A stretch of 23,302 nt of DNA, from positions 1-23,302 of IMG/VR virus record IMGVR_UViG_3300017719_004071; one strand, 5' to 3'. The notes below the pieces were generated by a model. That model had not been told where the DNA came from and ran no database searches. It worked only from the letters and a program-made list of their open reading frames with translations. Shown here in pieces: positions 4,056 through 23,302 of the stretch; the first letter of the stretch is position 1, and each line of letters opens with the position of its first letter. This DNA comes from a virus. The translations under genes and the position numbers were made by a program.

Positions 4056-4715
4056 ATGTTACAAATCCACAAAAGTATGCATCCAATGAATGAGTTTGCT
4101 CCAACATGGAACATTCCATTATGGTTTGACAAATACGAAAACACTGCAGATTTGAATACAATGCGTGAGTGGATCATAAGCAACGAACAAAATATAATTG
4201 CTACGCACAAAGGTAAGTCTGGAGATGATGGTGGTACTGGTTTAGGAAAAGAAAGTTTAACTGCACAATACAAAAGTTTTAACTTGTTTAAAGAAGCAAA
4301 AGATGTTAGTGTGTTTAATACTTTGTTTAATTGGCTACAACAGTCTTACATTAATTTTATGGACGAATACAAAACACAACCAAGAAAATGTATTATGTTT
4401 TGCTGGGCAAACGTATTAAGGAAAGATCAACCTATAGACATACACTGTCATGGTGCTAAACATTTTTCTTATTTGAGCGGAAATTTACATCTTGAAGATT
4501 ATTCAACGCAAACAGTATATCACAATCCTGTGAATCCTAGAATGGTGTATGAAACAAAAAATGTTGCAGGTGGCTTAACACTGTTTCCTAGTTACATATT
4601 TCATCAAGCAGACACGCACAAAGGTGAAAAAGAAAGAGTCAGCATGGCTTTTGATTTATTTGACACAGGTTTTTATGAAGGAGACCGTACAAACGGTATA
4701 GAGTTTAACGCATGA
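4056..4715 (+). CDS. putative 2OG-Fe(II) oxygenase (TIGR02466-like)
   Basis: 219 residues with a double-stranded beta-helix core in the C-terminal half. The iron site appears as His130-Cys-His132 followed by 'LSGNLHLED', then 'LFPSYIFHQ' with His183, and Arg194 for 2-oxoglutarate in 'KERVSMAFD'. The His-x-His start, the 'LSG' strand and the 'LFPS...H' strand are hallmarks of the TIGR02466/2OG-FeII_Oxy_5 group, common in marine phages. The substrate is unknown; related phage enzymes have been proposed to hydroxylate proteins or small molecules. The stop TGA overlaps the RNase H start in an ATGA. Confidence 0.75.
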   Translation: MLQIHKSMHPMNEFAPTWNIPLWFDKYENTADLNTMREWIISNEQNIIATHKGKSGDDGGTGLGKESLTAQYKSFNLFKEAKDVSVFNTLFNWLQQSYINFMDEYKTQPRKCIMFCWANVLRKDQPIDIHCHGAKHFSYLSGNLHLEDYSTQTVYHNPVNPRMVYETKNVAGGLTLFPSYIFHQADTHKGEKERVSMAFDLFDTGFYEGDRTNGIEFNA

Positions 4716-5701
4716 CAACACACATATTAGTAGATACTGCAAACACATTCTTCAGAGCAAGGCACGTTATTAGAGGTGACCTTAATGAAAAGATAGGTAT
4801 GGCACTGCACATCACATTTAATTCAATACGTAAAGTATGGAGAGATTTTGATGGCAGTCATGTTGTGTTCTGTTTAGAAGGACGCAGTTGGAGAAAGGAT
4901 CATTATGCTCCATACAAACGTAATAGGTCAGATGCTAGAGCAGTTAGAACAGAAACTGAGGTAGAAGAAGACGAAGTGTTCTGGGAAACATTTGATAATT
5001 TTAAAAATTTTATTGACGAAAAAACTAATTGTACTGTATTGAGACACGAAAATTTAGAAGCAGATGATTTAATTGCAGGGTGGATCCAAGCACATCCTAA
5101 CGATAATCATGTAGTTGTATCTACAGATGGTGACTTTGCCCAACTGATTGCACCTAATGTAAAACAATTTAATGGTATTCAAGATATTACAACCACACAC
5201 GAAGGATACTTTGATGAAAAAGGCAAACGTGTGATAGACAAAAAAACAAAAGAAGAAAAACCTGCTCCAAATCCACAATGGTTGTTATTTGAAAAATGTA
5301 TGAGAGGCGATAGTTCAGACAACGTTTTTTCAGCATATCCTGGTGTGCGTACAAAAGGAACTAAAAAGAAAGTAGGTTTACTTGAAGCCTTTGCAGATAG
5401 AGAATCAAAAGGTTATAATTGGAATAATTTAATGTTACAAAGATGGGTAGATCATGAAGGTGCAGAACACAGAGTGCTAGATGATTATCAAAGAAATGTA
5501 AAACTGTGTGATTTAACAGCACAACCAGATGAAATACAAAAGATTATAAAAGACACAGTAGCCAGTGCTACTGAAAAACAAATAGAACAAGTTGGTTTAA
5601 AACTAATAAAGTTCTGTGCAAAATGGGATATGCAGAGAATTGCAGACTCTCCAGAGTCATATGCAGAACCATTAAACGCAAAATACAAAAAAGGAGAATA
5701 A
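4712..5701 (+). CDS. rnh: T4-type RNase H / 5'-3' exonuclease (FEN1 superfamily)
   Basis: The 329-residue product follows the T4 Rnh plan. The first metal-binding Asp is at residue 8 in 'ILVDTANTFFRA'; 'LEADDLIAG' (116-119) gives the Glu-x-Asp-Asp cluster; 'STDGDFAQL' gives Asp139 and Asp141; and 'MRGDSSDNVFSAYPGV' (about 197-212) gives Asp200 and Asp203 and leads into a helix-hairpin-helix-like region. These are the acidic residues that bind the two magnesium ions. The enzyme removes RNA primers and adjacent DNA from lagging-strand fragments. In T4 it cooperates with the single-strand binding protein and helicase loader. It is the clearest core replication gene here. Confidence 0.9.
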   Translation: MTTHILVDTANTFFRARHVIRGDLNEKIGMALHITFNSIRKVWRDFDGSHVVFCLEGRSWRKDHYAPYKRNRSDARAVRTETEVEEDEVFWETFDNFKNFIDEKTNCTVLRHENLEADDLIAGWIQAHPNDNHVVVSTDGDFAQLIAPNVKQFNGIQDITTTHEGYFDEKGKRVIDKKTKEEKPAPNPQWLLFEKCMRGDSSDNVFSAYPGVRTKGTKKKVGLLEAFADRESKGYNWNNLMLQRWVDHEGAEHRVLDDYQRNVKLCDLTAQPDEIQKIIKDTVASATEKQIEQVGLKLIKFCAKWDMQRIADSPESYAEPLNAKYKKGE

Positions 5702-11267: not shown

Positions 11268-12275
11268 ATGGCATTACAGTTAAGACGAGGAACTAACGCA
11301 GAACGTGGAGCAATCACTCCTGCATTGGGCGAACTTGTATATGTAACGGATTACACAACGGCGGGCGTTGCACCGCTTTTTGTTGGTGATGGTGTAACAG
11401 TTGGCGGAAGTCCAGTTGGTGCTTCTTCATTAACTTTCACAGGAATTGCAGGTAACGTAACACCTGACACAGACAGCACAAGAGATTTAGGAACAAACAC
11501 AGAAAGATGGGCAAATGCCTATGTGGATGATATCACAGTAACAAACTTGGTAACAGGTACTGTTAAAGGTGATGTACAAAACGCCGCAGGACAAGTTGTA
11601 TTTGATGCCGCTTCAGGTTCAATCACAGCAAACATAACAGGATCAGTAAGTGGTTCAGTTGTAGGTCACGTGGTAGGTTCAGTGTTTGGAGATGATTCAA
11701 CACAATTAGTTGATGGTGCAAACGCAAATATTTCAAACATCAACAATGTTAATTTTAACGCAGGTCCTAACACAGGACTTAATGAAGTTTATCAAATCAA
11801 TGTAGACACAGCAACTAACCTTGTTAGAATTGGTCACGCAACTGATGATGAATTTCCAAGAGTTGCATTCATAAGACAAAAAGCCGCAGGTGCAATAGGT
11901 GACACAGATGCAGTTGGAAGATTGCAATTCACAAAAGTAGACACAAACGGTGAAACGTTTTTTGGTCTTGTATCAGTCACACCAAATCAAATGTTTTTCT
12001 CAATTGATGACGGTGTACACGGTTTTGCTAAATTTTTTAAATTTTACAAAACAGGTAAATTTGCAATTAATGGTAGTTCACCAAATGAGCCAGATGCAGA
12101 ATTAGATGTGGATGGTGTTGCAAAACTATCACCACAAACCAATGCTCCAGCAAATCCAGTAACTGGTATGATTGCAGTAGCAGATGGTAGCACATGGGAT
12201 CCTGCTTCCAAAGGCGGAACACCAAATCCTTACCCAGCATTCTATGATGGAACTGCTTGGGTGGCAATGGCATAA
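11268..12275 (+). CDS. tail-fibre-like virion protein
   Basis: 335 residues, Gly/Ala/Thr/Val/Asn-rich and almost free of Cys. The N-terminus 'MALQLRRGTNAER' followed by 'TPALGELVYVTD' and 'LFVGDGVT' is the short virion-attachment module seen at the start of many phage tail fibres and appendage proteins (Mtd_N-like). Next comes a 'TRDLGTNTERWANAYVDDI' segment (about 70-90) typical of marine phage fibres, then beta-rich repeats with Gly-Ser-Val steps (about 120-150). The C-terminus ('AFYDGTAWVAMA') is a common fibre ending. It probably forms trimers on the tail or head and contacts the host surface. It has a strong AGGAG site and tandem late-promoter motifs, as expected for a structural gene. 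Confidence 0.82.
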   Translation: MALQLRRGTNAERGAITPALGELVYVTDYTTAGVAPLFVGDGVTVGGSPVGASSLTFTGIAGNVTPDTDSTRDLGTNTERWANAYVDDITVTNLVTGTVKGDVQNAAGQVVFDAASGSITANITGSVSGSVVGHVVGSVFGDDSTQLVDGANANISNINNVNFNAGPNTGLNEVYQINVDTATNLVRIGHATDDEFPRVAFIRQKAAGAIGDTDAVGRLQFTKVDTNGETFFGLVSVTPNQMFFSIDDGVHGFAKFFKFYKTGKFAINGSSPNEPDAELDVDGVAKLSPQTNAPANPVTGMIAVADGSTWDPASKGGTPNPYPAFYDGTAWVAMA

Positions 12276-12297
12276 AACACCCCGTAGAACCAAAAAT

Positions 12298-12374
12298 TAG
12301 CGTCGTACAGTGCCCATGAAAGGCACTCATGATAAGTTATAGCCATGAAGAAAAACAGGGCATAAATGACGCTA
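12298..12374 (+). other. possible structured RNA element between tail-fibre and dioxygenase genes
   Basis: TAGCGTCGT (12298-12306) pairs with ATGACGCTA (12366-12374): nine pairs including one G-U. Inside it, AGTGCC (12309-12314) pairs with GGCACT (12322-12327) around a seven-base loop, and CATG (12328-12331) with CATG (12344-12347). The 77-base span is tRNA-like in length but lacks a T-arm and CCA. It overlaps the late promoter at its 3' end. It might be a 3'-end structure of the fibre message or an RNA of its own. Confidence 0.35.
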
Positions 12375-12380
12375 TAAATA
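12373..12380 (+). promoter_or_regulatory. perfect T4-type late promoter (TATAAATA)
   Basis: An exact TATAAATA preceded by C, the form reported for T4 and cyanophage late promoters, lies ten bases before the ATG at 12391. No ribosome binding site lies in between. Transcription would begin only about four bases before the start codon. Confidence 0.75.
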
Positions 12381-12390
12381 ATTTTAAATT

Positions 12391-13278
12391 ATGCAAGAAA
12401 GTTTTTTAGATAAAGATTTTGGTACTGACCAATCAAGAGAAAAACAAATTCGTAAACATTTTGGTATCAAAGAATTACAACCAAAATGTCAAGATGAGTA
12501 TGTAAAAATTCCTATAGATTTACCTTGGAAAGAATTAGAACAAGACGTAACAGGTGCATTCGATAAGTTTGGTTGGTATGGTATGTGCCACAGAGGAAAC
12601 AGTGATTGGAGTCGAAGTAAATTGTATGGAGGTTTAGGATTAAACTATAACCCTGACTACAAATTTAACATACCCACACACGCACAAGGTCTAGGTCAAC
12701 CAAGATCCATAAAAAATGTTAATGCAAAAGAGTGGGTTAGAGATTTAGAAAATTATGATTATTCTAATCAAACTGAAGAAATACAGATAAAAGGATTTAA
12801 CACATATGATGATTGTTTAGGATTACGTGTTGCCACAGATGTAACAAATTATAGATCCTTTACAACCATATTCGATAAACTCAAAAGAAAATCCATTCAA
12901 GGAAGAATAGCAGAAATAAGAGCCGCAGAACACGGAAAAAGTGTAAGCGAAGATGACAAAGAATTTATGTGGCATACTGATGAACGAAATGAAATAGTGT
13001 CCAGGGTATTGATACCTGTAGTTTTTGATGAAGATTATTTTATTGAATTTAAAGATACAGGAACAAAATTATACTTTGAACCAGGCTATGCATATCATTG
13101 GAACACATACAAAGTACATAGATTTAATTTTAACTATCACAACAGCATAAAAAATAGAACTTGTATTGTGTTAGGTTGGTCTCCGTGGCTAGACTTTGAT
13201 GGTGAACGTTGGATTCAAAATGAATACTTTAATAAAATACATCCTACTGACATGGTCAAGCAAGGACTAGTAATTTAA
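12391..13278 (+). CDS. putative 2-oxoglutarate/Fe(II) dioxygenase, Asp/Asn-hydroxylase-like
   Basis: 295 residues. The N-terminal 150 have no recognised domain. The C-terminal half reads as a cupin-type dioxygenase: His195-Thr-Asp197 in 'MWHTDERNEIVSRVLIPV', then 'PGYAYHWNTYKVHRF' supplying His236 or His243, and a possible 2-oxoglutarate Arg256 before a strand. This fits the aspartyl/asparaginyl hydroxylase-like group abundant in marine T4-like phages. The substrate is unknown. A perfect late promoter drives it, and no Shine-Dalgarno site is visible. It is transcribed toward the reverse operon, with a one-base gap between the two stop codons, and is probably a distant relative of the enzymes coded there. 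Confidence 0.72.
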   Translation: MQESFLDKDFGTDQSREKQIRKHFGIKELQPKCQDEYVKIPIDLPWKELEQDVTGAFDKFGWYGMCHRGNSDWSRSKLYGGLGLNYNPDYKFNIPTHAQGLGQPRSIKNVNAKEWVRDLENYDYSNQTEEIQIKGFNTYDDCLGLRVATDVTNYRSFTTIFDKLKRKSIQGRIAEIRAAEHGKSVSEDDKEFMWHTDERNEIVSRVLIPVVFDEDYFIEFKDTGTKLYFEPGYAYHWNTYKVHRFNFNYHNSIKNRTCIVLGWSPWLDFDGERWIQNEYFNKIHPTDMVKQGLVI

Positions 13279-13279
13279 T

Positions 13280-13963
13280 CTATTTAGAAAAATAACTTTC
13301 TATATCTTCAGGCATGGTCATATCTAATTTAGATATGTAAGAATTTTCATATTTTTTAATAGAGTTGTCCAATAGTTGATCGTACTTTGCATTATGGTCT
13401 TCCACTGTCCAAGGAGCACCCATTGCCAAAGTAAATTTCATATCAGAGTTATTATTACTCATACTATGAGGCCAATATCCAGACATTACAAAAGGCTGAT
13501 TTATTAAATTTTCTTTTATGTGATAATTTGTGTTTTGTCCATTAAAATACAAGTTGTCTGTTTGTCCACGTAGTACCACTCTAAATTTGTGTTCTAGCAT
13601 CTGTTTGTCAAAGTTTTTTCGACTACAATCTATATGCGTTGGATTTGATTCTCCTGCTTTTGTGCATATCACTACAACACGTCCTAATTCATTAGTCCAA
13701 GGTTTAACATAAGTTTCAATGTAATTTTTAATCTCAGGCAATTGTTCACTTTCTTTTGACCATTGTTTTTCAATCAAGTTGTTATTGCGTATGTCTTTTC
13801 CTGCACTTACGTATATTGGTATGTGTCTACAATTTCTAAATTGGTCATCAAAACTGCTTTCTTTTACTATTGTTTCTAGCCTTTGTATCAATGAAGATGT
13901 TACAGGAAACGGAGGCAAATCCAAATAAAGAAATGCTAGTTTTTCTTTTATATTATCAAGCAT
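13280..13963 (-). CDS. putative aspartyl-hydroxylase-like dioxygenase
   Basis: 227 residues; last gene of the reverse operon. The core has 'NPTHIDCSR' (His110-Ile-Asp112), Arg128 in 'KFRVVLRG', 'SGYWPHSMSN' (His166) and the strand 'DMKFTLAMGAPW'. This order matches the aspartyl/asparaginyl hydroxylase cupins, where two Arg bind the 2-oxoglutarate. Here the second basic position is Lys176, which may lower or alter cosubstrate binding. The start overlaps the upstream methyltransferase by 16 bases; AGGA lies eight bases before it. Substrate unknown. Its 3' end is one base from the convergent dioxygenase gene, with no terminator visible. Confidence 0.72.
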   Translation of the reverse strand: MLDNIKEKLAFLYLDLPPFPVTSSLIQRLETIVKESSFDDQFRNCRHIPIYVSAGKDIRNNNLIEKQWSKESEQLPEIKNYIETYVKPWTNELGRVVVICTKAGESNPTHIDCSRKNFDKQMLEHKFRVVLRGQTDNLYFNGQNTNYHIKENLINQPFVMSGYWPHSMSNNNSDMKFTLAMGAPWTVEDHNAKYDQLLDNSIKKYENSYISKLDMTMPEDIESYFSK

Positions 13964-14562
13964 TTTTGCATTCCTAACAGTGTTTTTGTATCATACTTGG
14001 TTTCTTTTATATCACATTGCAATAATGATTTAATGTATTCATCATTGTAAAAGGTCCATAAAAAGTCTTCGGTTTTTAAATAATACACATTACTTTGACT
14101 TATTGCTTTCCAGTTGTCTGCTTTTAAGTTTCTATATCTACAAATATTTTCGTATGCGTCTTTGTTGGTGTTTGAATAGTATGACAGTAATAACTTGCTA
14201 CAATTTTTTTTAAGTGTATCAACGACCTCTAACATCTCATTTTCATACATATGAGTAATCACTGAAAATGATACTGCAACATCATATTTGTTTTCTAACT
14301 GCAATTTTGCTGTTCCTTTTTTATTGTACATATAATTGTATCCGTTGTAGTACAACCACTGGTATTGCGGATATTTTGTTTTGTTAATGTCAATGATTTG
14401 TTTGTTAATGTCTATTCCTGTGTATTCATTGTGTGGAGTATAACGAATAAAGTTGCCATGATTACACCCAAAGTCTAGCACAGACTGATTGCTGAAATCT
14501 ATGTACTGTTCAAAGTATTCTCTAACGTTGTATCTAAAGTAATTTTTCAAATCCGACATCAT
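13948..14562 (-). CDS. SAM-dependent methyltransferase (class I)
   Basis: 204 residues. Motif I is 'VLDFGCNHGNFI' (28-39), followed by the acidic loop 'YTGIDINKQII' with Asp51, so the Rossmann-type SAM site is present. A post-I region and 'DVAVSFSVITHMYENEMLE' (about 94-112; core His-Met-Tyr) look like motif IV and the helix after it. The family transfers methyl groups to small molecules, lipids or sugars; the target is unknown. GGGAG lies three bases before the first ATG and six before the second, so Met2 (14559) is the likelier start. It overlaps both neighbours in the operon and may methylate the same product that the dioxygenases hydroxylate. Confidence 0.82.
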   Translation of the reverse strand: MMSDLKNYFRYNVREYFEQYIDFSNQSVLDFGCNHGNFIRYTPHNEYTGIDINKQIIDINKTKYPQYQWLYYNGYNYMYNKKGTAKLQLENKYDVAVSFSVITHMYENEMLEVVDTLKKNCSKLLLSYYSNTNKDAYENICRYRNLKADNWKAISQSNVYYLKTEDFLWTFYNDEYIKSLLQCDIKETKYDTKTLLGMQKCLII

Positions 14563-15043
14563 GAACTCCCATATGAAATACTATTCGAGTCTTTGATGGA
14601 GATTTAACACCGTGAGGTTTTTTAGTGTTTAGCACAACCATTGAATCATATAAAATACTGTCACTATCATTGCCATCATCAAAGTACAATGCACCTGTGT
14701 TTTCTGTAATAGGCACAACAAATGAGCATTTGCTTTTTACATCTGCATGTAAAGGCAACTCTCCACCTTCTAGAACTTTAAAGAAATTGCATCTAAATTC
14801 TTTTGGTCTTATCCCAAACTGGTTCCAAATACTTTTAATAAATCTTAACAATTTCCTATCAAAGTTTTTAATTTCTTGTACGTAAAATTTATTCATGTTT
14901 TTTCCACCAGTAGCATCACTCACGTATTCTGAATACAATTGATTACTATCTTCCCATTCGTCATTGAAGTAGTCATCGAAAAACTCAGGTTCTACTTTGT
15001 AATCTGTTTCAATAAAAAAGTTTTTGTGCCAAGTTTTATTCAT
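14534..15043 (-). CDS. putative 2OG-Fe(II) oxygenase
   Basis: 169 residues with a complete dioxygenase signature: 'ELPLHADVKSKCSFVVPI' contains His99-Ala-Asp101; 'GALYFDDG' is a core strand; 'MVVLNTKKPHGVKSPSKTRIVFHMGV' (about 135-160) holds His144 and the 2-oxoglutarate Arg153. The short N-terminal region has no known domain. It resembles small prolyl/aspartyl hydroxylase-like enzymes of marine phages; the substrate is unknown. AAAGGA lies six bases before the ATG. It overlaps the upstream gene by eight bases and the methyltransferase by 29. Confidence 0.8.
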   Translation of the reverse strand: MNKTWHKNFFIETDYKVEPEFFDDYFNDEWEDSNQLYSEYVSDATGGKNMNKFYVQEIKNFDRKLLRFIKSIWNQFGIRPKEFRCNFFKVLEGGELPLHADVKSKCSFVVPITENTGALYFDDGNDSDSILYDSMVVLNTKKPHGVKSPSKTRIVFHMGVHDVGFEKLL

Positions 15044-15842
15044 CTAAATCCTTTTGACCATCTACAGAAACAATTATATGAGATCTAGCAGTGGTGCCTT
15101 TGTTCCATGCACTGTGTCTTAATCCTTGATTCAAAAACCAACAAGATCCTGGTTCCATTGTTTGATATACTTTTTCTCCGTCTACCACACAATAAAAACC
15201 ACAATCTTTGTTTGTTGTAATGGGTATGTGAAATCTAATAGAATAATCTGTGTTGTAATCAATGTGTTCTGCCACATAAGCACCTGGATCCATTATGGCA
15301 ATCCTAGCACGTGTTGTTTCTGATTTAAATGATGTAACAACTTCTTCTAAATAAGTTCCTTTAACCCAGTCTTTTATTTTGTTGTAGTGTCTTTCATCTA
15401 ATCTGTTTTTAGGTATTTTTTTATCATACACTCTATCTTCCATATCTGGATTGTATTGACAAAGGGCAATTTGTTTGTATGGAGACCCGTTGACCTCAAA
15501 TCTACCATCATCATCTTTTTGTATGTAATTTTCAAATGGCTTCACATAGTTTCTATAATCCCACGCCATTCTTTTTCCACCTAAACCTTTTCTAAACTCA
15601 GATTCTTCAACATCGTTGTCTTGTAAAAATTTATAAGCATCTTCAATAGAGTCAAATTTTAAGCCAAATGCTTTTTGCAGTTTAGGAGATTTACCTCCTA
15701 CAAGTTCACCATAGCCGTCTTTCGCTTTTAAATCGTCCACTTCTACTGGCATTTGTTGTACCACTTCAATAATTTTATCTACATCAAAAGTTATGTCTAA
15801 CTTTTTAAATGGTGGTAAATCATGTCTCTTTTTTAATGTCAT
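15036..15842 (-). CDS. putative aspartyl/asparaginyl hydroxylase-like dioxygenase
   Basis: 268 residues from ATG at 15842. A longer frame begins with GTG at 15905, but the shorter start has AAAGGA five to six bases upstream and reduces the overlap with the preceding gene from 86 to 23 bases. The C-terminal cupin reads 'VAEHIDYNTDYSIRFHIPI' (His193, Asp195), 'PGSCWFLNQGLRHSAWN' (His243) and 'ARSHIIVSV' (Arg253), a full Fe(II)/2-oxoglutarate site. The N-terminal 160 residues are unassigned and may bind substrate. This is the best-conserved hydroxylase of the operon. Substrate unknown. Confidence 0.82.
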   Translation of the reverse strand: MTLKKRHDLPPFKKLDITFDVDKIIEVVQQMPVEVDDLKAKDGYGELVGGKSPKLQKAFGLKFDSIEDAYKFLQDNDVEESEFRKGLGGKRMAWDYRNYVKPFENYIQKDDDGRFEVNGSPYKQIALCQYNPDMEDRVYDKKIPKNRLDERHYNKIKDWVKGTYLEEVVTSFKSETTRARIAIMDPGAYVAEHIDYNTDYSIRFHIPITTNKDCGFYCVVDGEKVYQTMEPGSCWFLNQGLRHSAWNKGTTARSHIIVSVDGQKDLDE

Positions 15843-16404
15843 GTATTCCTTTGTATTGCCAGCATCTTGGGTTTTCTTTTCTACAAACAAGAACTTTGTC
15901 ATCACTAAACTGCCACGTTGTTCCTGTTTTCTTTTCTATTTCTAAAAATAATTTCTTCATGTACAATCTATTTCTACATCTACTGATGAATGCTTTTGTA
16001 AAACCTAATTTTGTTGCAATTTCCAATTGGTGATTTATTGTTGCCAACAAGTGTGGTCTTACAATATCTCTCCCAGGTTTTCTTAAACTTGCATCTTCCC
16101 AGTATCTATTCAAAATTCTTACTTCACCTTTTTCATAGTATTCCGGACGGTGCCAAACAGAACTAAAACCTAGCACTGCTTCATCTTTAAGCAACACAGT
16201 GATACATTCAAAGTCTGACCAATTAATAGTAACATAATCTTCTTTTTGTTCTAAATCATCAAAAGAAATTTGTTTTAATTTTTCTATGATGTCTGGTCTG
16301 TCTTCAGGCTTGAACGTTAAAACATCACACTCTGAATTTTTACTTTCGTAATTACTGTGGCCAGGTGTCAACATCGTTCCAAAACTCTTTGTTCTTTTTT
16401 CCAT
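15820..16404 (-). CDS. possible GNAT-type N-acetyltransferase
   Basis: 194 residues. 'YVTINWSDFECITVLLKDEAVLGFSSVWHRPEYY' (about 57-90; key Gly in Val-Leu-Gly-Phe) looks like the central GNAT strands, and 'RILNRYWEDASLRKPG' followed by a helix with 'HQLEIATKLGFTKAFISR' fits the acetyl-CoA-binding helix and beta-5. The classic Arg/Gln-x-x-Gly-x-Gly/Ala loop is not clean, so the call is tentative. Two starts are possible: ATG at 16404 (53-base overlap) and ATG at 16374 (23-base overlap); neither has a good ribosome binding site. It sits between two dioxygenase genes and may acylate the same substrate. Confidence 0.5.
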   Translation of the reverse strand: MEKRTKSFGTMLTPGHSNYESKNSECDVLTFKPEDRPDIIEKLKQISFDDLEQKEDYVTINWSDFECITVLLKDEAVLGFSSVWHRPEYYEKGEVRILNRYWEDASLRKPGRDIVRPHLLATINHQLEIATKLGFTKAFISRCRNRLYMKKLFLEIEKKTGTTWQFSDDKVLVCRKENPRCWQYKGIHDIKKET

Positions 16405-16927
16405 GTACTAATAAATGCACTCTTTCTTCATCTGAGTTGTTTTCTACATAGTGTTCATAATGTATATTCAACACAACACTCATACCAGGTTTATATTTTA
16501 TTTCTTTATTGTTTAAAATAAATTTGTTTCCTTCTGGATACGTAATACTTATGTTGAGCGGTTCAAGCCAATTTCTTTCTGGAACATCTATGTGTTTTGT
16601 GATATATCCTTTTGGTTTAATTACTAAAAATCTAACATCATCAATCCGTGAATATGGTAAAGTGTTAACCCATTTCAAAGTGCCTTGACATTTTTTCCCT
16701 ACTTCAGTAACAAAAGGTTTTTCTCCCTTCTGTCTATATTCCCAATGACTGTTTGTCTTGTCTGACCCAAAACCAAACAAAGTCACTGCGTACCAATCCT
16801 TGTGTCCGTCTTCTGGTCTATGATTAATCAGTGTGTCTTTTATTTCTTTGTACTCACGTAAAATTGCGTTGGTTGGAACAACGAACTTCATCTCTACCCA
16901 TTCTACACTGCTGTCTCGATTAAACAT
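16352..16927 (-). CDS. putative Asp-hydroxylase-like dioxygenase
   Basis: 191 residues from ATG at 16927, which has TAAGG seven bases upstream and overlaps the desaturase gene by only eight bases; a longer frame to 16984 exists but its extra residues copy an alternate frame of the desaturase. The core is 'GYITKHIDVPERNW' (His112, Asp114), 'KYKPGMSVVLNIHYEHYV' (His156 or His159) and 'EERVHLLVHG' (Arg169), an aspartyl-hydroxylase-like cupin with its iron and 2-oxoglutarate residues in place. It also has an 'FGFGSDKTNSHWEY' segment that may shape the substrate site. Substrate unknown. Confidence 0.75.
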   Translation of the reverse strand: MFNRDSSVEWVEMKFVVPTNAILREYKEIKDTLINHRPEDGHKDWYAVTLFGFGSDKTNSHWEYRQKGEKPFVTEVGKKCQGTLKWVNTLPYSRIDDVRFLVIKPKGYITKHIDVPERNWLEPLNISITYPEGNKFILNNKEIKYKPGMSVVLNIHYEHYVENNSDEERVHLLVHGKKNKEFWNDVDTWPQ

Positions 16928-17495
16928 TTGATGCCTTAGGATTGTAATTGTGATGATCTTTATGATTGCCTTCAAAAGGTGCAATCAAGTTTATTAACAA
17001 ATTATTGGCTGGTCCTTGTGCATCATGTCCATAAAAATTAAGCACTCCAAAACCAATGTAAGATAATATTAATATCATTGAATTAATGATCAAAGCATTG
17101 ACACCAAAAATTAAAAAAGTAATCATCCAATGACTTGCAAAAATATATTTTCCATATTTGTGGAAAAACATGATTCTTGGGTTACGTATCAAGTCAATTA
17201 AAAATTTTCTTGGAATAGATTTTACTTTCCAAAGACTGAACAGCACAACATACCAAGGATGATTTTTTGGACTATGAGGATCATTTTCTGTGTCGGCATA
17301 AGCATGGTGCATTCTGTGAACACCTGCCCAAGTCAATAAACTTCTTCCCCCACACAGTAAACCAAAATACAAATAGATGATTTCTAATACAGGGTGCTGT
17401 TGTTTTCCGCCGTGGGCAAAGTATCTATGGTACCCCCAAGTGATGCCAATAGCCGCCAAAATCCAGTATAAGATATATCCATATAATAAAATCAT
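16920..17495 (-). CDS. compact delta-9-type fatty acid desaturase
   Basis: 191 residues with all three histidine boxes of membrane acyl desaturases: His-Arg-Tyr-Phe-Ala-His (23-28), His-Arg-Met-His-His (60-64) and His-Lys-Asp-His-His (178-182). They bind the di-iron centre that inserts a double bond into an acyl chain. 'TWGYHRYFAHGG' and 'HHAYADTENDPHSP' are characteristic of the stearoyl-CoA desaturase-type family. Hydrophobic stretches at 1-20, 38-58, 80-90 and 120-155 would span the membrane. At 191 residues it is much shorter than typical enzymes (about 260-380), lacking the first transmembrane hairpin and the C-terminal tail. It is the first gene of the reverse operon and may alter membrane lipids during infection. 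Confidence 0.85.
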   Translation of the reverse strand: MILLYGYILYWILAAIGITWGYHRYFAHGGKQQHPVLEIIYLYFGLLCGGRSLLTWAGVHRMHHAYADTENDPHSPKNHPWYVVLFSLWKVKSIPRKFLIDLIRNPRIMFFHKYGKYIFASHWMITFLIFGVNALIINSMILILSYIGFGVLNFYGHDAQGPANNLLINLIAPFEGNHKDHHNYNPKASNV

Positions 17496-17521: not shown

Positions 17522-17529
17522 TATTTATC
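17522..17529 (-). promoter_or_regulatory. late-type promoter motif (GATAAATA) on reverse strand
   Basis: Reading the reverse strand, GATAAATA lies 26 bases before the desaturase ATG (17495). It matches the T4 late core at seven of eight bases and is the only such motif seen in front of the seven-gene operon, suggesting late expression of the whole set. No Shine-Dalgarno site precedes the desaturase. Confidence 0.5.
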
Positions 17530-17561: not shown

Positions 17562-18464
17562 ATGAATAAGAAACCTACTACACCTTTTGAATTGCCACGT
17601 TTTAGTGCGGAGAAAAACACGCAAGTAAAACATCTTTTTTACAATTGGGATCAAGAACAAGAAGTGATTCGCGAGATGCAAAAGTGTCAACGTAATTGGG
17701 ACTACTCAAAAGAAGTGCCACCAGAAATCATTGACTACCTATTATGGCACTGCACCAACTCACCATCAAAACAATTTGAGGCATATTATGATGTGTATTG
17801 GACAGCAGACAGAAAAGTTATAAAAGAAATATCAAAATACACATGGGGCCATACTCATTTTAGAACTCCGCCAGCCACTTGGAGAAACACTCAGGCAAAT
17901 GCAAACCTTTACATATTGTTTGTTGCCAAAGAACCTGAAACACAATTGAATTGTAAAAGTGATGGTACTTTAAAATCAAATAAATCTCCTGCACGTTGGG
18001 AAAATGCTTATGTCAGCATTGGTATTGCAATGGGGCTAGTGATGAGAGCCGCTAGGAGTATGGGACTTGCAACAGGCTGTAACAAAAGTCACAATGATTT
18101 AGATGGAAATGACTTTTGGGAGAAAAAATTAGGAATACTAGAAGAAGTAAAAGCAGGCACAAAGCAAATTGCATATGGCATAGGTATAGGTTTCCCGCAG
18201 GAAGGAAGACCACGTTGGGAGGCTGATGATCCTGAAATAATGATTGGTGCAGGAAATGGCAGTAGAAACACAACACGTGATGATTTGCCTACACACCCAA
18301 GGACGGGTAAGGAATTACGCAAAGTAAAAATTGTAAACATAAACATACATGGTGGACAAAAAGTTGCAGACCCTTATGGTGACCTGCATGAGATTCCTAA
18401 AAAGCACGAAAGCAAGATTAATAGTTTTAGAAATAGAATTATAAACGTCACCGAAATTAAATAA
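17562..18464 (+). CDS. nitroreductase-like flavoprotein
   Basis: 300 residues. 'CTNSPSKQFEAYYDVYWT' (64-81) looks like the N-terminal nitroreductase element that contacts FMN phosphate, and 'NAYVSIGIAMGLVMRAARSMGLATG' (about 148-172; key Gly-x-Ala-x-Gly and Ala-Ala-x-x-x-Gly-Leu) is the long dimer helix of the family. 'IAYGIGIGFPQEGRPRW' (about 208-224) is the strand before the C-terminal arm. These enzymes reduce nitro groups, quinones, flavins or enones with NAD(P)H. In this island it might act on a biosynthetic intermediate; substrate unknown. Only a weak AGGA site lies about twelve bases before the ATG. Confidence 0.7.
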   Translation: MNKKPTTPFELPRFSAEKNTQVKHLFYNWDQEQEVIREMQKCQRNWDYSKEVPPEIIDYLLWHCTNSPSKQFEAYYDVYWTADRKVIKEISKYTWGHTHFRTPPATWRNTQANANLYILFVAKEPETQLNCKSDGTLKSNKSPARWENAYVSIGIAMGLVMRAARSMGLATGCNKSHNDLDGNDFWEKKLGILEEVKAGTKQIAYGIGIGFPQEGRPRWEADDPEIMIGAGNGSRNTTRDDLPTHPRTGKELRKVKIVNINIHGGQKVADPYGDLHEIPKKHESKINSFRNRIINVTEIK

Positions 18465-19324
18465 TGATTAATATTGTTGTATCCAGCAAACCTGTCGACG
18501 GTTTATTCTATTACAGTTACGAATATTGCACTTTGCTTAATGATGCAGGCATTGACGCTAGAGTTGTTGTGATTACACATAGAAAATTCACTAGAGAAGA
18601 TTATATTCAGGTAATCAATAACAAATACATTCACTGCAACAACATTGTGTTTGAAGACATCACAGTAGACAACAAAGATGTAACATTTATACTGGGCAGA
18701 AGCATGATGACATTGGCTTGGCAAGATTATGACCAATGCACAACATTACAACAAGAAATTTTACGTAAATTATTTGCTGATAAAGTTATATCAGTGTATT
18801 CAGAAAATCATCCTACAAAATATCCGTTGGCTGTGGAGTTTTTTGCACCAAAACGCATTGTAGATTTGTGTGATACAGAAGTCTATCTAAAAGGTGTGGG
18901 CAAACACTTCGAGAAAACTATTAACTTTGATATCTACAAGCCACACGTAGATGATATAAAGTTCAAACATTTATTTTTGGGCACCAATCAAAGATACTAT
19001 GCCACTGTTGAAAAAGTAATCAAGGATTATCCGGATCATGGCATATTGACATATGAAGCAGACTATGTTAATATGGAAAATAACAATGTATTTGTGCCTG
19101 TTGACAACATTATGAGTATGTTTGAAACATATGTGTACACCAAAGACACATTTGACCCTGCTCCTAGAATATTTCAAGAGTGCAAACACTTTGGAAAAGA
19201 AGTAATTTATATGAGAGACAAATCAATTCATGATGGCGGCAGTGTGTATTGGACAAGAGAGATTGCAAAACCAAACATAGCACCCATATTAGAAGCAATG
19301 GAAGAATTAAATGATACCGTATGA
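18464..19324 (+). CDS. possible glycosyltransferase-like protein (GT-B-like)
   Basis: 286 residues. It opens with 'INIVVSSKPVDGLFYYSYEY', a Rossmann-type strand and loop, and ends with 'FDPAPRIFQECKHFGKEVIYM' (about 238-258) where 'PAPRIFQE' resembles the nucleotide-sugar-binding 'E' segment of some GT-B glycosyltransferases. Motifs are loose, so the family is not certain. The ATG overlaps the nitroreductase stop by one base (TAATG), and the next gene overlaps by 14 bases, so it belongs to the same transcript as a sugar-type aminotransferase. That context favours a glycan role. Confidence 0.5.
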   Translation: MINIVVSSKPVDGLFYYSYEYCTLLNDAGIDARVVVITHRKFTREDYIQVINNKYIHCNNIVFEDITVDNKDVTFILGRSMMTLAWQDYDQCTTLQQEILRKLFADKVISVYSENHPTKYPLAVEFFAPKRIVDLCDTEVYLKGVGKHFEKTINFDIYKPHVDDIKFKHLFLGTNQRYYATVEKVIKDYPDHGILTYEADYVNMENNNVFVPVDNIMSMFETYVYTKDTFDPAPRIFQECKHFGKEVIYMRDKSIHDGGSVYWTREIAKPNIAPILEAMEELNDTV

Positions 19325-20399
19325 AGGTTGGGATAGAGAATATCAACAAAACAAAGATGCATATCTTAAATTGTTTGATGATTTTATGTCGCAAAGCAAC
19401 TATGAGAACTGCGAACAGTTTGAAAAAGAGTTTGCAGAACTGATAGGAAGAAAATATGCAGTCAGTGTTGCCAATGCCACCGATGCATTACATTTTTCAT
19501 TAAAGAGTAGGAATATAGGTCCAGGTGATGAGGTATTAGTGACAGACTTCAGTTGGATATCCACATCATCATGCATTAGCATGGTTGGAGCAACTCCTGT
19601 TTTTTGTGATATAGATGCAGACACTTGTCATATTTCATTAGACAGTATAAAACGTATGACCACACCCAACACAAAGGCGTTGATATACACGCATCTGTTT
19701 GGCAACATGAGTGATACTACTGATATTGAACAACATTGCAAAGACAATGGCATAATGTTTGTGGAAGATGCGGCACAAAGTTTAGGTTCACGCATCAACA
19801 ACCGTAAAGCAGGCTCTATTGGCGATTGCAGTTCATTTAGTTTTAACACAAACAAAGTTATATCCGGAATAAATGGTGGTGGAATATTTTTAACAGACGA
19901 TGAACAATTGGCAAACACAGTTAAAAAATTAAGACGTCATGGAAAAGGCAAGGATTATGAAATGCTTGGATACAATTCAAGAATGTATGTGCTGAATGCA
20001 CAAATAATTCAATTGCGTTTAAAAAATTTAACACGTGATAGGCAAATAAGAGAGCAAAATGCTATGACGTACAACAGTGCTTTTAAAAATTTGCCCATAC
20101 AAACACCAACTGTGCCTTTTAATGTTGAACACAACTGGCACAAATATACAATTAAATTCAAAGACAAAGAAACAAGAAACAAAGTAAAAAATAAACTAAA
20201 TCTTTCTGTGCATTATGAAACTCCACTATCAGAAAATTCTATGTACAATGCATGGAGTATTGATTACGTGAAAGATGATTGCGTAAATTCTAAACAAGTG
20301 GCAGATACAATACTATCTTTGCCTGTCCATGCTTACTTGGAACAAAATGAGATTGCAAATTTAATTAAATACATTAAAGAAGCAATTAATGAAAAATAA
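19311..20399 (+). CDS. DegT/DnrJ/EryC1/StrS-type aminotransferase
   Basis: 362 residues, normal for the family. The PLP site is visible: 'VANATDALHFSL' (about 53-64) binds the phosphate side, 'FVEDAAQSLGS' (150-160) supplies Asp153 for the pyridine nitrogen, and 'SFSFNTNKVISGINGGG' contains Lys182, the PLP-binding lysine, followed by the Gly-rich turn. The family moves amino groups onto keto sugars or related cyclic ketones, giving aminosugars of LPS, capsules or natural products. The start overlaps the preceding gene by 14 bases and the 3' end overlaps the radical SAM gene by 11. Likely substrate: a nucleotide-linked keto sugar. Confidence 0.9.
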   Translation: MIPYEGWDREYQQNKDAYLKLFDDFMSQSNYENCEQFEKEFAELIGRKYAVSVANATDALHFSLKSRNIGPGDEVLVTDFSWISTSSCISMVGATPVFCDIDADTCHISLDSIKRMTTPNTKALIYTHLFGNMSDTTDIEQHCKDNGIMFVEDAAQSLGSRINNRKAGSIGDCSSFSFNTNKVISGINGGGIFLTDDEQLANTVKKLRRHGKGKDYEMLGYNSRMYVLNAQIIQLRLKNLTRDRQIREQNAMTYNSAFKNLPIQTPTVPFNVEHNWHKYTIKFKDKETRNKVKNKLNLSVHYETPLSENSMYNAWSIDYVKDDCVNSKQVADTILSLPVHAYLEQNEIANLIKYIKEAINEK

Positions 20400-21021
20400 A
20401 CATTCAAATTTATTCTGGACAAGGAAAAAAAACGAGTGGGTTAATTTAGATATCACTAACAGATGTCCTCTGTTATGTCCATTGTGCCAAAGACAAAAAC
20501 TCTACACAGACAACAATGAAAAAGTTCCAGGACATGATATGTCATTGGAAGTATTCGACGTAATTACAAATCATTTTCCAAGAGTTGACTTTTGTGGACA
20601 GTACTCAGATCCAATACATCATCCGCAATTTGACAAAATTCTAGATATGTGTAAGAAAAAAAATATAAGAGCAACAATTCATACTGCATCATCTTTTAAA
20701 CCTAAAAAATGGTATGTAAAAATGTTTCAACAATATCCAAATTGTGAGTGGTGCTTTGGCATTGACGGCTTACCTAAAGACAGCAACCAGTATAGAATAA
20801 ATCAGGATGGTGAAAAATTGTTCGAGATAATGCTAGAAGCAAAAAAATATCTCAGATCCACACCAATTTGGCAATACATAGTCTTCAAGTACAATGAAAA
20901 AGATGTAGATACAGCCATGCAAATAGCCAAAGACAATAAAATTTTCTTTCAACTTATAAATTCAAGAAGAACTAGAATTAATTATGAACATTACAAAACC
21001 ACTAAAAAAATATATGTCTAA
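20389..21021 (+). CDS. radical SAM protein, N-terminal part (frameshifted)
   Basis: 210 codons. 'LDITNRCPLLCPLCQRQ' carries Cys26-x3-Cys30-x2-Cys33, the 4Fe-4S motif of radical SAM enzymes. The rest of the barrel follows, with 'FCGQYSDPIHHPQF' in place of the usual Gly-Gly-Glu-Pro. The frame stops at 21019 right after an A7 run at 21004-21010; shifting one base there continues into the overlapping frame ending at 21352, which supplies the missing C-terminal cysteines. Joined, they would give about 320 residues, a normal radical SAM/SPASM size. So this is probably half of one gene, broken by a real mutation, an assembly error or programmed slippage. Reaction unknown. Confidence 0.8.
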   Translation: MKNKHSNLFWTRKKNEWVNLDITNRCPLLCPLCQRQKLYTDNNEKVPGHDMSLEVFDVITNHFPRVDFCGQYSDPIHHPQFDKILDMCKKKNIRATIHTASSFKPKKWYVKMFQQYPNCEWCFGIDGLPKDSNQYRINQDGEKLFEIMLEAKKYLRSTPIWQYIVFKYNEKDVDTAMQIAKDNKIFFQLINSRRTRINYEHYKTTKKIYV

Positions 21022-21352
21022 ACTTGATCCACAATGTATAAAAGGAACAATATCCTTTGCTATAACAAACAGACAAGAACTTCTCCCTTGTTGCTATCTA
21101 GATTCACCAAACAATCTTAATCATCCACTTTTACAAAAATTACTAAAAGTCAGTAAAATAGACACCACGAATACTGTTGACAAAATTTTAAACCATAAAG
21201 AATGGAAAAGATTCTACAAAAATCTTAAAAAAAATATAGCACCGCCAGAATGTCATAGTATATGTGCAAAATTTAAAAAGTCAAAACGTAAACAAAGTTG
21301 GCAAGTTGTTGACCCTGAGACAGGTAAAGTTGTGTTCAAAAATGAATTTTAA
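20984..21352 (+). CDS. C-terminal SPASM-like part of the radical SAM protein (frameshifted)
   Basis: The frame is open from 20960 and has an ATG at 20984, with no convincing ribosome binding site. From 'LDPQCIKG' onward it contains a Cys-Cys pair ('LLPCCYLDS') and Cys-x3-Cys in 'PPECHSICAKF', like the auxiliary iron-sulfur binding C-termini of radical SAM/SPASM enzymes. It has no N-terminal domain of its own. It is best read as the continuation of the preceding frame after a one-base shift at the A7 run, giving about 113 more residues. The 3' end overlaps the convergent SGNH-like gene by four bases. Confidence 0.65.
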   Translation: MNITKPLKKYMSKLDPQCIKGTISFAITNRQELLPCCYLDSPNNLNHPLLQKLLKVSKIDTTNTVDKILNHKEWKRFYKNLKKNIAPPECHSICAKFKKSKRKQSWQVVDPETGKVVFKNEF

Positions 21353-21972
21353 AGTATCAGTTCTAAATGCTTCTGCATAAATTCAGCCATTAATTTTTGC
21401 GATTTTACCCCTGGATGATCATTATCCTTAGCAAAGTCTACATTGCTGAACTTTTTTGATATTAAATTTACCTTATTCCATGCAGGTCTTTTAATTTGAT
21501 ATGGACTAGGATCCCAAGTAAAATGCAAATTTTTAAGTTGTAAAGAATCAAGATGTGCTTTCGCAAGATTTATTTGCACCATGCTGTCATACCAAGCATT
21601 GTGATCAGAATCAAAATGTTCATAGTAGTATGCAGAGTGCAGTCGATTTGCTTCTTTATTGTCTATTTTAGGTCTGGTGATGTCTGATGGTAGCATACGT
21701 AAAACTTTATCTGTGTCAATAAAACAACTTCGACAAAAAGCAGTCCACTGTATTACGACAATGTCGTTTTTTTCAAAATCAGTGTTTAACAATCTGTGCA
21801 AAATTAATTTGTTGCTGGCTCCTCCGTGGGCTCGATTCCAAACCGTAAAGCCTAAATTTTTTGCCAAAACAGACGGCCAAGCATATTCACTCACATTATT
21901 ATCGCCATCTTCTAAATCAGGCAATGCCTGTCCTTGTGTATTACTGCAACCAAAAGCAACTATTCTGTTCAT
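21349..21972 (-). CDS. SGNH-hydrolase-like protein (GCS variant)
   Basis: 207 residues. It begins 'MNRIVAFGCSNTQG', with Gly8-Cys9-Ser10 where SGNH enzymes have Gly-Asp-Ser. 'NRAHGGASNKLI' (about 46-57) resembles block II-III, and 'AKDNDHPGVKSQKLMAE' near the C-terminus gives the Asp-x-x-His pair followed by Pro-Gly, as in block V. Ser, Asp and His are thus available. The family cleaves or transfers acyl groups; the substrate is unknown. It lies alone on the reverse strand inside the sugar-type island, behind a perfect late promoter that ends only five bases before its start codon. Confidence 0.72.
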   Translation of the reverse strand: MNRIVAFGCSNTQGQALPDLEDGDNNVSEYAWPSVLAKNLGFTVWNRAHGGASNKLILHRLLNTDFEKNDIVVIQWTAFCRSCFIDTDKVLRMLPSDITRPKIDNKEANRLHSAYYYEHFDSDHNAWYDSMVQINLAKAHLDSLQLKNLHFTWDPSPYQIKRPAWNKVNLISKKFSNVDFAKDNDHPGVKSQKLMAEFMQKHLELIL

Positions 21973-21977
21973 GATGA

Positions 21978-21985
21978 TATTTATA
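21978..21985 (-). promoter_or_regulatory. perfect T4-type late promoter (TATAAATA) on reverse strand
   Basis: On the reverse strand an exact TATAAATA is followed by five bases and then the ATG at 21972. The expected transcription start falls at the start codon, so the message may be leaderless. A second, forward late-type motif lies 31 bases away (22017-22024). Confidence 0.7.
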
Positions 21986-22016
21986 ACCTAGACAGGCACA
22001 ACCAAAAATTTGTGTC

Positions 22017-22024
22017 AATAAATA
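22017..22024 (+). promoter_or_regulatory. late-type promoter motif (AATAAATA)
   Basis: AATAAATA lies seven bases before the ATG at 22032 and faces away from the reverse late promoter at 21978-21985. No ribosome binding site is present in between, so translation would begin almost at the 5' end of the message. Confidence 0.55.
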
Positions 22025-22031
22025 TGATATA

Positions 22032-22880
22032 ATGAAAAAAGATATCTTAACATTAAAAGATTTAAAAAACTCAGACTATCTTTCGGTTGATTTCTATCTA
22101 TCTAAATCATGCAACAAGTCATGTCACTACTGTACAGCATGGACTTTGGAGATGCGTAATTTGACTGTGGATATGGATTTTTTGAAACGCACAGTAGAAT
22201 ATTTGAGTCCCTACAAAACACGTATCTGTTTGTTGGGTGGTGAGCCTGGTCTGATAAAAAATCTAGATGAAGTTATTGCAGAAATCAAAAAACATCCTAA
22301 TCTTGTAGTGCAAGTGATGTCCAATTCATTCATAAGAAAAAGATATCCACACGTGTTGGAAGATCCTGAAATAATCTACATAGAACATCTGGTATTAGAT
22401 TTTTACGAAGATCGTATTGAAAAATTGGGCAACTTTGATTTCCTTCCAGAGAATAACAAAAACAATTACAATTTGATTATTGAAACTCCTGGATACTTCA
22501 AATACAGAGACTTACATGACTTGTCTTATTTGAAACACAAAAACACAGAATTTAAAGAATATAATTCACGATCACCTGACTATCATGGTGATCACACAAT
22601 GATTCAAGCACCAGAACTGGACAGACGTATTTGTGCTAAATTTCCGCTAGTACCAGTAGTAGATTTTGAATTGCAAAAAATTAGACATTGCAGTAGAAAA
22701 GTGATTAACGGTTCTAGACAGTTTGACATAACCAAAGAAAATGTAGACAAAATGATGACGTTTAATTTGTTTCAGTTTGAAACTTATTGTAGAGGTTGTA
22801 TGGACATCATTCCTCCAAGACCAATTAAACGCAAACTGCAAATACTAGAAAAAATTGCATTAGAGGAGCCCAACGCATAA
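22032..22880 (+). CDS. radical SAM protein with C-terminal Cys-rich region
   Basis: 282 residues. 'LSKSCNKSCHYCTAW' gives Cys27-x3-Cys31-x2-Cys34, the 4Fe-4S site, and 'ICLLGGEPGLIKNL' (66-79) is the SAM-contacting Gly-Gly-Glu-Pro motif. The C-terminal part has 'DRRICAKFP', 'IRHCSRKV' and 'TYCRGCMDIIPP', four or so cysteines that could hold an auxiliary cluster (SPASM/twitch-like). The enzyme likely performs radical chemistry on a sugar, peptide or small molecule; the substrate is not evident. It is distinct from the frameshifted radical SAM gene nearby. Its stop overlaps the start of the carbamoyltransferase gene (TAATG). Confidence 0.85.
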   Translation: MKKDILTLKDLKNSDYLSVDFYLSKSCNKSCHYCTAWTLEMRNLTVDMDFLKRTVEYLSPYKTRICLLGGEPGLIKNLDEVIAEIKKHPNLVVQVMSNSFIRKRYPHVLEDPEIIYIEHLVLDFYEDRIEKLGNFDFLPENNKNNYNLIIETPGYFKYRDLHDLSYLKHKNTEFKEYNSRSPDYHGDHTMIQAPELDRRICAKFPLVPVVDFELQKIRHCSRKVINGSRQFDITKENVDKMMTFNLFQFETYCRGCMDIIPPRPIKRKLQILEKIALEEPNA

Positions 22881-23302
22881 TGAGTATATTTGCAGTGGCA
22901 TTGAACATACATGATCACAACACATACAATGGTGATGTGCATATTCAGATTGAGCGACAAAATAGGAAACGGCACAATCTCAATCCTGCAAATCCACATG
23001 ATGCTTTTCCAAGCCAGAAATTTTTTAAAGAACACGTGCTGGAAGCATTTAAAAATAGGACGCAGGACAATGTGTTTGCTTTCACTGTTAGCAACCTTGG
23101 ACAAGAATATGTGTCTGATTTATTGGATCAACATTTCCCCAACAAAAACTTTTTAGATTTCAAACCTTTAACGTTGTGGGAACATTATCACAAAGACGAA
23201 ATGTATTACATTGATCATCATCAATCGCACTCCGCTTATGCTTTTTTAACTTCAGGTTATGATCACAGCGACATACTAGCAATAGATGGCAGAGGTTGGA
23301 AG
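22880..23302 (+). CDS. carbamoyltransferase, NodU/CmcH family (3' truncated by window edge)
   Basis: The first 141 codons are present, open to the end of the window. 'YYIDHHQSHSAYAFLTSGY' contains the His-x-x-x-His metal-binding pattern of the family's N-terminal Kae1-like domain, and 'ILAIDGRGW' matches the phosphate/metal-binding 'IDGxGE' strand, here with Trp for the usual Glu. Family members move a carbamoyl group from carbamoyl phosphate to hydroxyls of sugars or antibiotics through carbamoyl adenylate. Full-length proteins have about 550 residues, so most of the gene lies outside. It starts in a TAATG overlap with the radical SAM gene, so the two probably act on one substrate. GAGGAG at 22863-22868 is the likely ribosome binding site. 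Confidence 0.8.
   Translation, partial: MSIFAVALNIHDHNTYNGDVHIQIERQNRKRHNLNPANPHDAFPSQKFFKEHVLEAFKNRTQDNVFAFTVSNLGQEYVSDLLDQHFPNKNFLDFKPLTLWEHYHKDEMYYIDHHQSHSAYAFLTSGYDHSDILAIDGRGWK

Follow-up and report, generated by a model that had tools for sequence, protein, structure and literature searches.

The question raised by the locus described here is whether a run of viral genes for oxygenases, a desaturase, an acyltransferase-like protein and a methyltransferase serves one pathway, and what such a pathway would make. The run occupies positions 13280-17495 of a viral stretch of 23,302 nt (positions 1 to 23,302 of IMG/VR record IMGVR_UViG_3300017719_004071; the window, below, means the whole of this stretch), where seven overlapping open reading frames (ORFs) of the ORF list lie on the minus strand and are transcribed in the order h, g, f, e, d, c, b. 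An initial annotation had read them as a coupled operon of a kind not previously described. Order and slot conservation, taken by themselves, make it very probable that the core of the operon, h-g-f-e-d, is one functional unit; for its product we tentatively propose an oxidised acyl-amide.

Conservation of the gene order in viral contigs

The order desaturase-AAH-GNAT-AAH is fixed across contigs of marine viruses and is usually followed by the 2-oxoglutarate (2OG) oxygenase d, where AAH denotes the Asp_Arg_Hydrox family (PF05118). Scanning with e recovered 37 viral contigs, most of them with h-g-f-e-d. Because such a sample contains e by construction, separate scans were made with h and with f, and the three scans together gave 90 loci after removal of repeats, some of which are close relatives, so that locus counts are not counts of independent events. 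The exact order h-g-f-e-d is present in 24 loci and h-g-f-e in a further 8. On contigs from the desaturase-only scan with at least 4 kb downstream, an AAH gene is found in 40 of 41, a GNAT gene in 33 of 41 and both in 32 of 41, against a background of 7 AAH genes and no GNAT gene among 217 genes located more than 6 kb away. Seventy-one desaturase genes have 4 kb or more of sequence downstream. All of them are followed by a gene of the same orientation, in 70 cases across a gap of at most 20 bp or with an overlap; within 4.5 kb of these genes an AAH gene occurs in 69 and an AAH together with a GNAT gene in 61.

The expectation that all seven families stay together in order thus holds, far beyond chance, for the core and not for the last two genes: c occurs in roughly half the loci, and few give a full-strength alignment for b, so that both are variable additions. 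Three other layouts also exist (h-GNAT-SDR-AAH, h-aminotransferase-like-AAH-GNAT and one that begins h-TauD-AAH), and the TauD, SDR-like, aminotransferase-like and methyltransferase genes that are added in other versions fit a biosynthetic pathway, as would be expected. The between-locus distances of e, f and d correlate with each other (Spearman 0.75-0.90), and those of h show no such relation to the distances of e, f or d (0.02-0.16). Desaturase lineages that are about 40% identical occupy the one slot, beside e proteins that are 76-89% and g proteins that are 58-83% identical. Since such divergent desaturases stand in the same slot next to much more similar neighbours, the desaturase gene seems, by these comparisons, to have been exchanged with its activity kept.

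All seven genes of the operon are under purifying selection, with the ratio of nonsynonymous to synonymous changes (pN/pS) at 0.01-0.14 against the nearest distinct relative (locus L003). The overlapping reverse layout of the initial annotation is real for every ORF, with smaller overlaps than the ORF list gives: the ORF of g extends to a TTG at 16984 and the start in relatives is the ATG at 16927, that of f extends to 16404 and relatives point to 16374, and that of e extends to a GTG at 15905 and relatives point to the ATG at 15842. With these three starts corrected the large overlaps are reduced to 8-29 bp, a size that appears to resemble that of translationally coupled genes.

A cellular source of the cassette was considered and rejected. 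Among 84,980 species genomes scanned with e there was one match, on a contig binned as Rhodobacteraceae that carries the whole phage cassette, which gives no evidence for a bacterial pathway. This locus (L041; FZLS01000007.1, Rhodobacteraceae bacterium Water_Bin34) has the full cassette on a phage-like contig, and other contigs of its assembly carry further AAH genes. A sample of 385 genomes from the class of that contig and 398 from its phylum had no other instance of f and only weak AAH matches for g; homologues in other bacteria may exist. A role in defence was also set aside, the PADLOC matches for d and f being at E 0.005-0.006 only and taken as noise.

The desaturase

Gene h (16920-17495, minus strand; 191 aa), the first of the operon, is judged from its sequence to be clearly a desaturase, of the compact, di-iron, membrane-bound SCD/DesC type. 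It is short and divergent, reaching 25.3 bits for Pfam FA_desaturase (cut-off 29.7) and 38.2 for the NCBIfam DesA family (cut-off 400), with a weak unnamed match in PHROGs, and its profile matches the SCD1 structures 4zyo and 4ymk at about 1e-16. In the alignment of relatives the metal ligands H23, H28, H60, H63, H64, N153, H157, H178, H181 and H182 are invariant. These are the full SCD1 set of nine His and an Asn, made up of the three His boxes already recognised in the initial annotation and a fourth His. The complete SCD metal site, together with the match to acyl-CoA desaturases, points to an acyl substrate for h.

Lipid desaturases are reportedly encoded by cyanophages; for h, no cyanophage record matched at E<=1e-5. 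In four loci (L089, L093, L096 and L114) there are two desaturase genes within one cassette, the second placed after the GNAT or an AAH gene.

The four oxygenases

Four of the genes had been credited with an intact or near-intact dioxygenase site, and the alignments agree. Genes g (AAH2; 16352-16927, minus strand) and e (AAH1, with an N-terminal extension; 15036-15842, minus strand) both pass the curated PF05118 cut-off of 22.6, at 48.1 and 51.2 bits, and their sites are invariant, H131/D133/H178/R188 of g in 17 relatives and H214/D216/H264/R274 of e (ORF numbering) in 15. In d (14534-15043, minus strand) the site H99/D101/H144/R153 is invariant among close orthologues. In b (13280-13963, minus strand), the variable last gene, H110/D112/H166 is invariant in 8 relatives, with K176 at the position of the Arg; this 2OG-oxygenase-like protein gives a weak profile match to d (E 3e-4). 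No useful Pfam match was obtained for b, d or f.

The four oxygenases belong to different lineages and are not one family. The AlphaFold model of d (predicted local distance difference test, pLDDT, 93.6) is a double-stranded beta-helix and superposes on the algal prolyl 4-hydroxylase 3gze with Z 15.8 and a root-mean-square deviation of 2.9 over 158 residues. We therefore take d, from this model, as a predicted double-stranded beta-helix oxygenase closest to the prolyl 4-hydroxylases. In hhalign comparisons the shallow oxygenase profiles gave too weak a signal to link d to e or g. In a provisional tree with bacterial AAH domains, g is sister to, and not inside, the clade of LpxO-like, OlsC and aspartyl-hydroxylase-like (AspH) proteins, with support 96/94, and e is placed in the tree's other half, among proteins some of which look like AAH-sulfotransferase fusions. 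The NCBIfam models of the acyl hydroxylases OlsC and LpxO are matched, weakly, by 16 of the 17 g proteins, and in a protein from a bacterial genome that does pass the OlsC cut-off the motif is HxG, in place of the HxD of phage g and e. Because the family cut-offs are failed, the tree position lies outside and the motifs differ in this way, g and e are assigned, by sequence, to new branches outside the OlsC and LpxO families. An acyl-hydroxylase-like action of g is possible.

Some further oxygenases were seen. The nearest relatives of e found in cells include two alphaproteobacterial proteins (L163, L165) of about 650 residues, with an AAH domain and an apparent sulfotransferase domain. Loci L011-L021 and others have, downstream, a distant second paralogue of d, often after a further small oxygenase (cluster 6), and some cassettes therefore hold six or more oxygenase genes. 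The window has yet another 2OG-Fe(II) oxygenase (phrog_81) at 4056-4715 on the plus strand, bringing its likely 2OG oxygenases to about six.

The GNAT protein and the methyltransferase

Gene f (15820-16374, minus strand), which had been called GNAT-like, has the GNAT fold in its predicted structure. The AlphaFold model (pLDDT 87.9; predicted template modelling score, pTM, 0.85) has the strand and helix order of GNAT, and searches with Foldseek and VIA gave 249 PDB matches at E<=0.001, the best of which are GNATs with Z up to 12.0 over 141 residues. Comparison with FeeM, LasI and RpaI gives Z 10.3-10.5, level with many acetyltransferases, and the fold neighbours of f do not separate acetyl from long-chain acyl donors.

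Gene c (13948-14562, minus strand) is a class I S-adenosylmethionine methyltransferase, as had been noted: it reaches 38.7 bits for Pfam Methyltransf_12 against a cut-off of 30, the family alignment agrees, and the PHROGs matches are to generic methyltransferases. Locus L011 has a PP-loop (asparagine synthetase-like) gene at 12165-13136 inside its cassette, possibly for an amide-forming enzyme.

Late-promoter motif, location and carriers

The single late-type promoter motif described before the operon is a near-match, GATAAATA at 17522-17529 on the minus strand, which lies 26 bp upstream of h and differs at one position from the T4 late promoter TATAAATA. The exact motif occurs in the window at chance level (2 found, 2.5 expected), one occurrence being at 12373-12380, just upstream of gene a, which is described below. 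Among the relatives, the exact motif lies at most 60 bp upstream of 8 of 88 desaturase genes, as against 0.9 in shuffles. Since it is enriched there, late expression of the operon is plausible, if weakly indicated.

In each of the 21 loci that show both, the cassette is located near a fibre-like gene (cluster 8). The two are at most 120 bases apart, in either orientation, in 17 of the 21, the window included, and 1-3 kb apart in the remaining four. In the window this gene is at 11268-12275 on the plus strand; its identity as a fibre gene comes from sequence style only. The T4 major capsid protein gp23 was found in 5 of the 16 records that hold the cassette or its relative, Pelagibacter phage Mosig included, so the carriers include T4-like phages; it is not present in the 23-kb fragment of the window itself.

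Discussion

How might the conserved genes work together? We propose that they encode a tailoring pathway, situated in a host-recognition island and used late in infection, the product of which would be an oxidised acyl-amide, for instance an acylated glycan of the envelope or an aminolipid, by which the surface of the infected cell or of the virion would be altered. We hold this proposal tentatively, as one that may be right. The combination of an acyl desaturase, a GNAT, hydroxylases and a methyltransferase leads one to expect an N-acylated, oxidised product. In the proposed pathway, f would couple an acyl group to an amine (an amino acid or an amino sugar), h would put a double bond into an acyl chain, and the oxygenases would add hydroxyl groups to the product, with g perhaps acting on its acyl chain and e and d on its head group, and with c and b as optional finishing steps. 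Stepwise action of all these enzymes on one substrate, as the initial annotation had it, is likewise a supposition. The wider claim, that marine T4-like phages encode a multi-step pathway to a previously unknown oxidised acyl-amide, made late and remodelling the envelope or the virion surface, is more doubtful.

Several findings weigh against the acyl-amide proposal. The fold of d is prolyl-hydroxylase-like, and modifiers of proteins and peptides belong to that group; the PDB profile matches of e are to amino-acid hydroxylases (the beta-hydroxylase 7v4f and the proline cis-4-hydroxylase 4p7w); and long branches weaken the placement of g in the AAH tree. The NCBIfam cut-offs are failed by far, with g at 16.1 against 450 for OlsC and e at 14.5 against 500 for LpxO. 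Moreover, f has no match to the OlsB N-acyltransferase family PF13444, or to any Pfam family up to E = 1, and neither an acyl carrier nor an acyl activator nor another acyltransferase is encoded in the operon.

The nearest known chemistry is that of the aminolipids, in the synthesis of which an N-acyltransferase acts and hydroxylation and methylation may follow (PMC11631085). The ornithine-lipid pathway (OlsB with PF13444, OlsC and the related LpxO) has similar kinds of enzymes, and its OlsC/LpxO clade is the one to which g is sister. Membership of that pathway was nevertheless rejected: f lacks PF13444, g and e fall far below the OlsC and LpxO cut-offs and have HxD where the bacterial protein above the OlsC cut-off has HxG, and g lies outside the clade. 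No relative of OlsA or OlsE was recognised in the operon.

In another explanation the target of the cassette is an O-antigen-like surface glycan directed by the phage. Here f would acylate an amino sugar that adjoining genes (aminotransferase, radical SAM, glycosyltransferase and carbamoyltransferase) supply and the oxygenases would oxidise the attached group, which would alter the receptor or exclude other phages. A plus-strand module of nitroreductase, glycosyltransferase (GT)-like, DegT aminotransferase, radical SAM and carbamoyltransferase genes does recur by the cassette in Mosig and several contigs, and at least one possibly glycan-type gene is present in 40 of 84 loci; lipopolysaccharide (LPS)-type genes and radical SAM cassettes are known in pelagimyophage host-recognition clusters (PMC7029224). 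However, more than half of the loci have no such neighbour within the stretch covered, and a membrane desaturase of the SCD type has no obvious role in sugar chemistry, so that we regard this explanation as unlikely, though deserving of attention.

It could also be supposed that some protein of the virion, for example the nearby fibre-like protein, undergoes post-translational modification by the oxygenases and the GNAT, in the manner of prolyl or aspartyl/asparaginyl hydroxylases. The constant nearness of the fibre-like gene, the late-type motif upstream of desaturase genes, the fold predicted for d and the inclusion of aspartyl/asparaginyl hydroxylases in the AAH family are all consistent with this supposition. 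It is noted, however, that a membrane desaturase with an SCD site does not fit protein modification and that many unrelated genes accumulate in the hypervariable regions by fibres; we consider the supposition improbable. That there is no joint pathway, the genes being loose auxiliary ones whose oxygenases mainly consume 2OG and so shift host nitrogen signalling, a role proposed for cyanophages in PMC3037559, where 14 of 16 genomes have several 2OG-FeII oxygenases, would suit the strong variation of gene content outside the core, but is given little probability in view of the fixed order, the overlapping frames and the slot conservation of a desaturase and a GNAT, which do not use 2OG, in many phages.

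Returning to the acyl-amide proposal, we compare the cassette with what is known in phages. Among 50,697 phage records, only Mosig has a recognisable, divergent version of it, and f, g and d gave no match in those records. In Mosig EXVC030M (MT647606, genes 00072-00081), an FA_desaturase, two Asp_Arg_Hydrox proteins, a GNAT, a methylase and a TauD-type dioxygenase are encoded in one minus-strand run between tail-fibre and baseplate regions, with nitroreductase, radical SAM and carbamoyltransferase neighbours of the same families as in the window. By contrast, the Mosig proteins are 30-34% identical, the gene order is another, and there are additional peroxiredoxin, flavin mononucleotide (FMN) reductase and aminotransferase genes. 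The GNAT of the Mosig cassette was annotated independently, and a relative from that protein cluster matches Acetyltransf_1.

According to PMC7029224, pelagimyophages have by their tail fibres a hypervariable host-recognition cluster with metabolic genes, freshwater members have a stearoyl-CoA desaturase, and one AAH is called core to all. This cluster is a variable island in the same kind of place as the cassette, but there the genes are named singly, and no account of a desaturase-AAH-GNAT-AAH-2OG cassette was found in the accessible part of that source. Likewise, the cyanophages of PMC3037559 are marine T4-like phages with several 2OG oxygenases, a pair of them sharing two asparaginyl beta-hydroxylases and a TauD, whereas no desaturase-GNAT-oxygenase operon is described in its accessible part. 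Single parts in marine phages and metabolic cassettes in host-recognition islands are thus already known, and what is unusual here is the number of coupled oxygenases and the fixed core. In line with the initial annotation, no account of the cassette was found in the open-access literature, which omits most subscription journals.

Marine phages have common genes that await explanation, 2OG oxygenases among them, and the fixed tie of several such oxygenases to a desaturase and a GNAT turns single oxygenases of this kind into one testable pathway. If the acyl-amide proposal is true, a new phage-made surface chemistry would be added to the known ones, and part of the host-recognition island in phages of abundant ocean bacteria could be explained.

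Neighbouring genes in the window

Next to the operon, on the plus strand, is gene a (12391-13278; from the ORF list), the end of which meets the end of b. It is oxygenase-like (HTD...H...R, by eye), is restricted to the lineage of the window itself (4 loci) and is under purifying selection. On the other side, the plus-strand genes at 17562-23302 form a second module, with nitroreductase, GT-like, DegT aminotransferase, radical SAM and carbamoyltransferase genes, relatives of which are found next to the cassette both in Mosig and in other contigs. Farther away, also on the plus strand, there are a GTP cyclohydrolase gene (FolE-like) at 1786-2475 and, at 4712-5701, an exonuclease gene, for which PA5oct-type jumbo phages of Pseudomonas give the nearest match at the DNA level.

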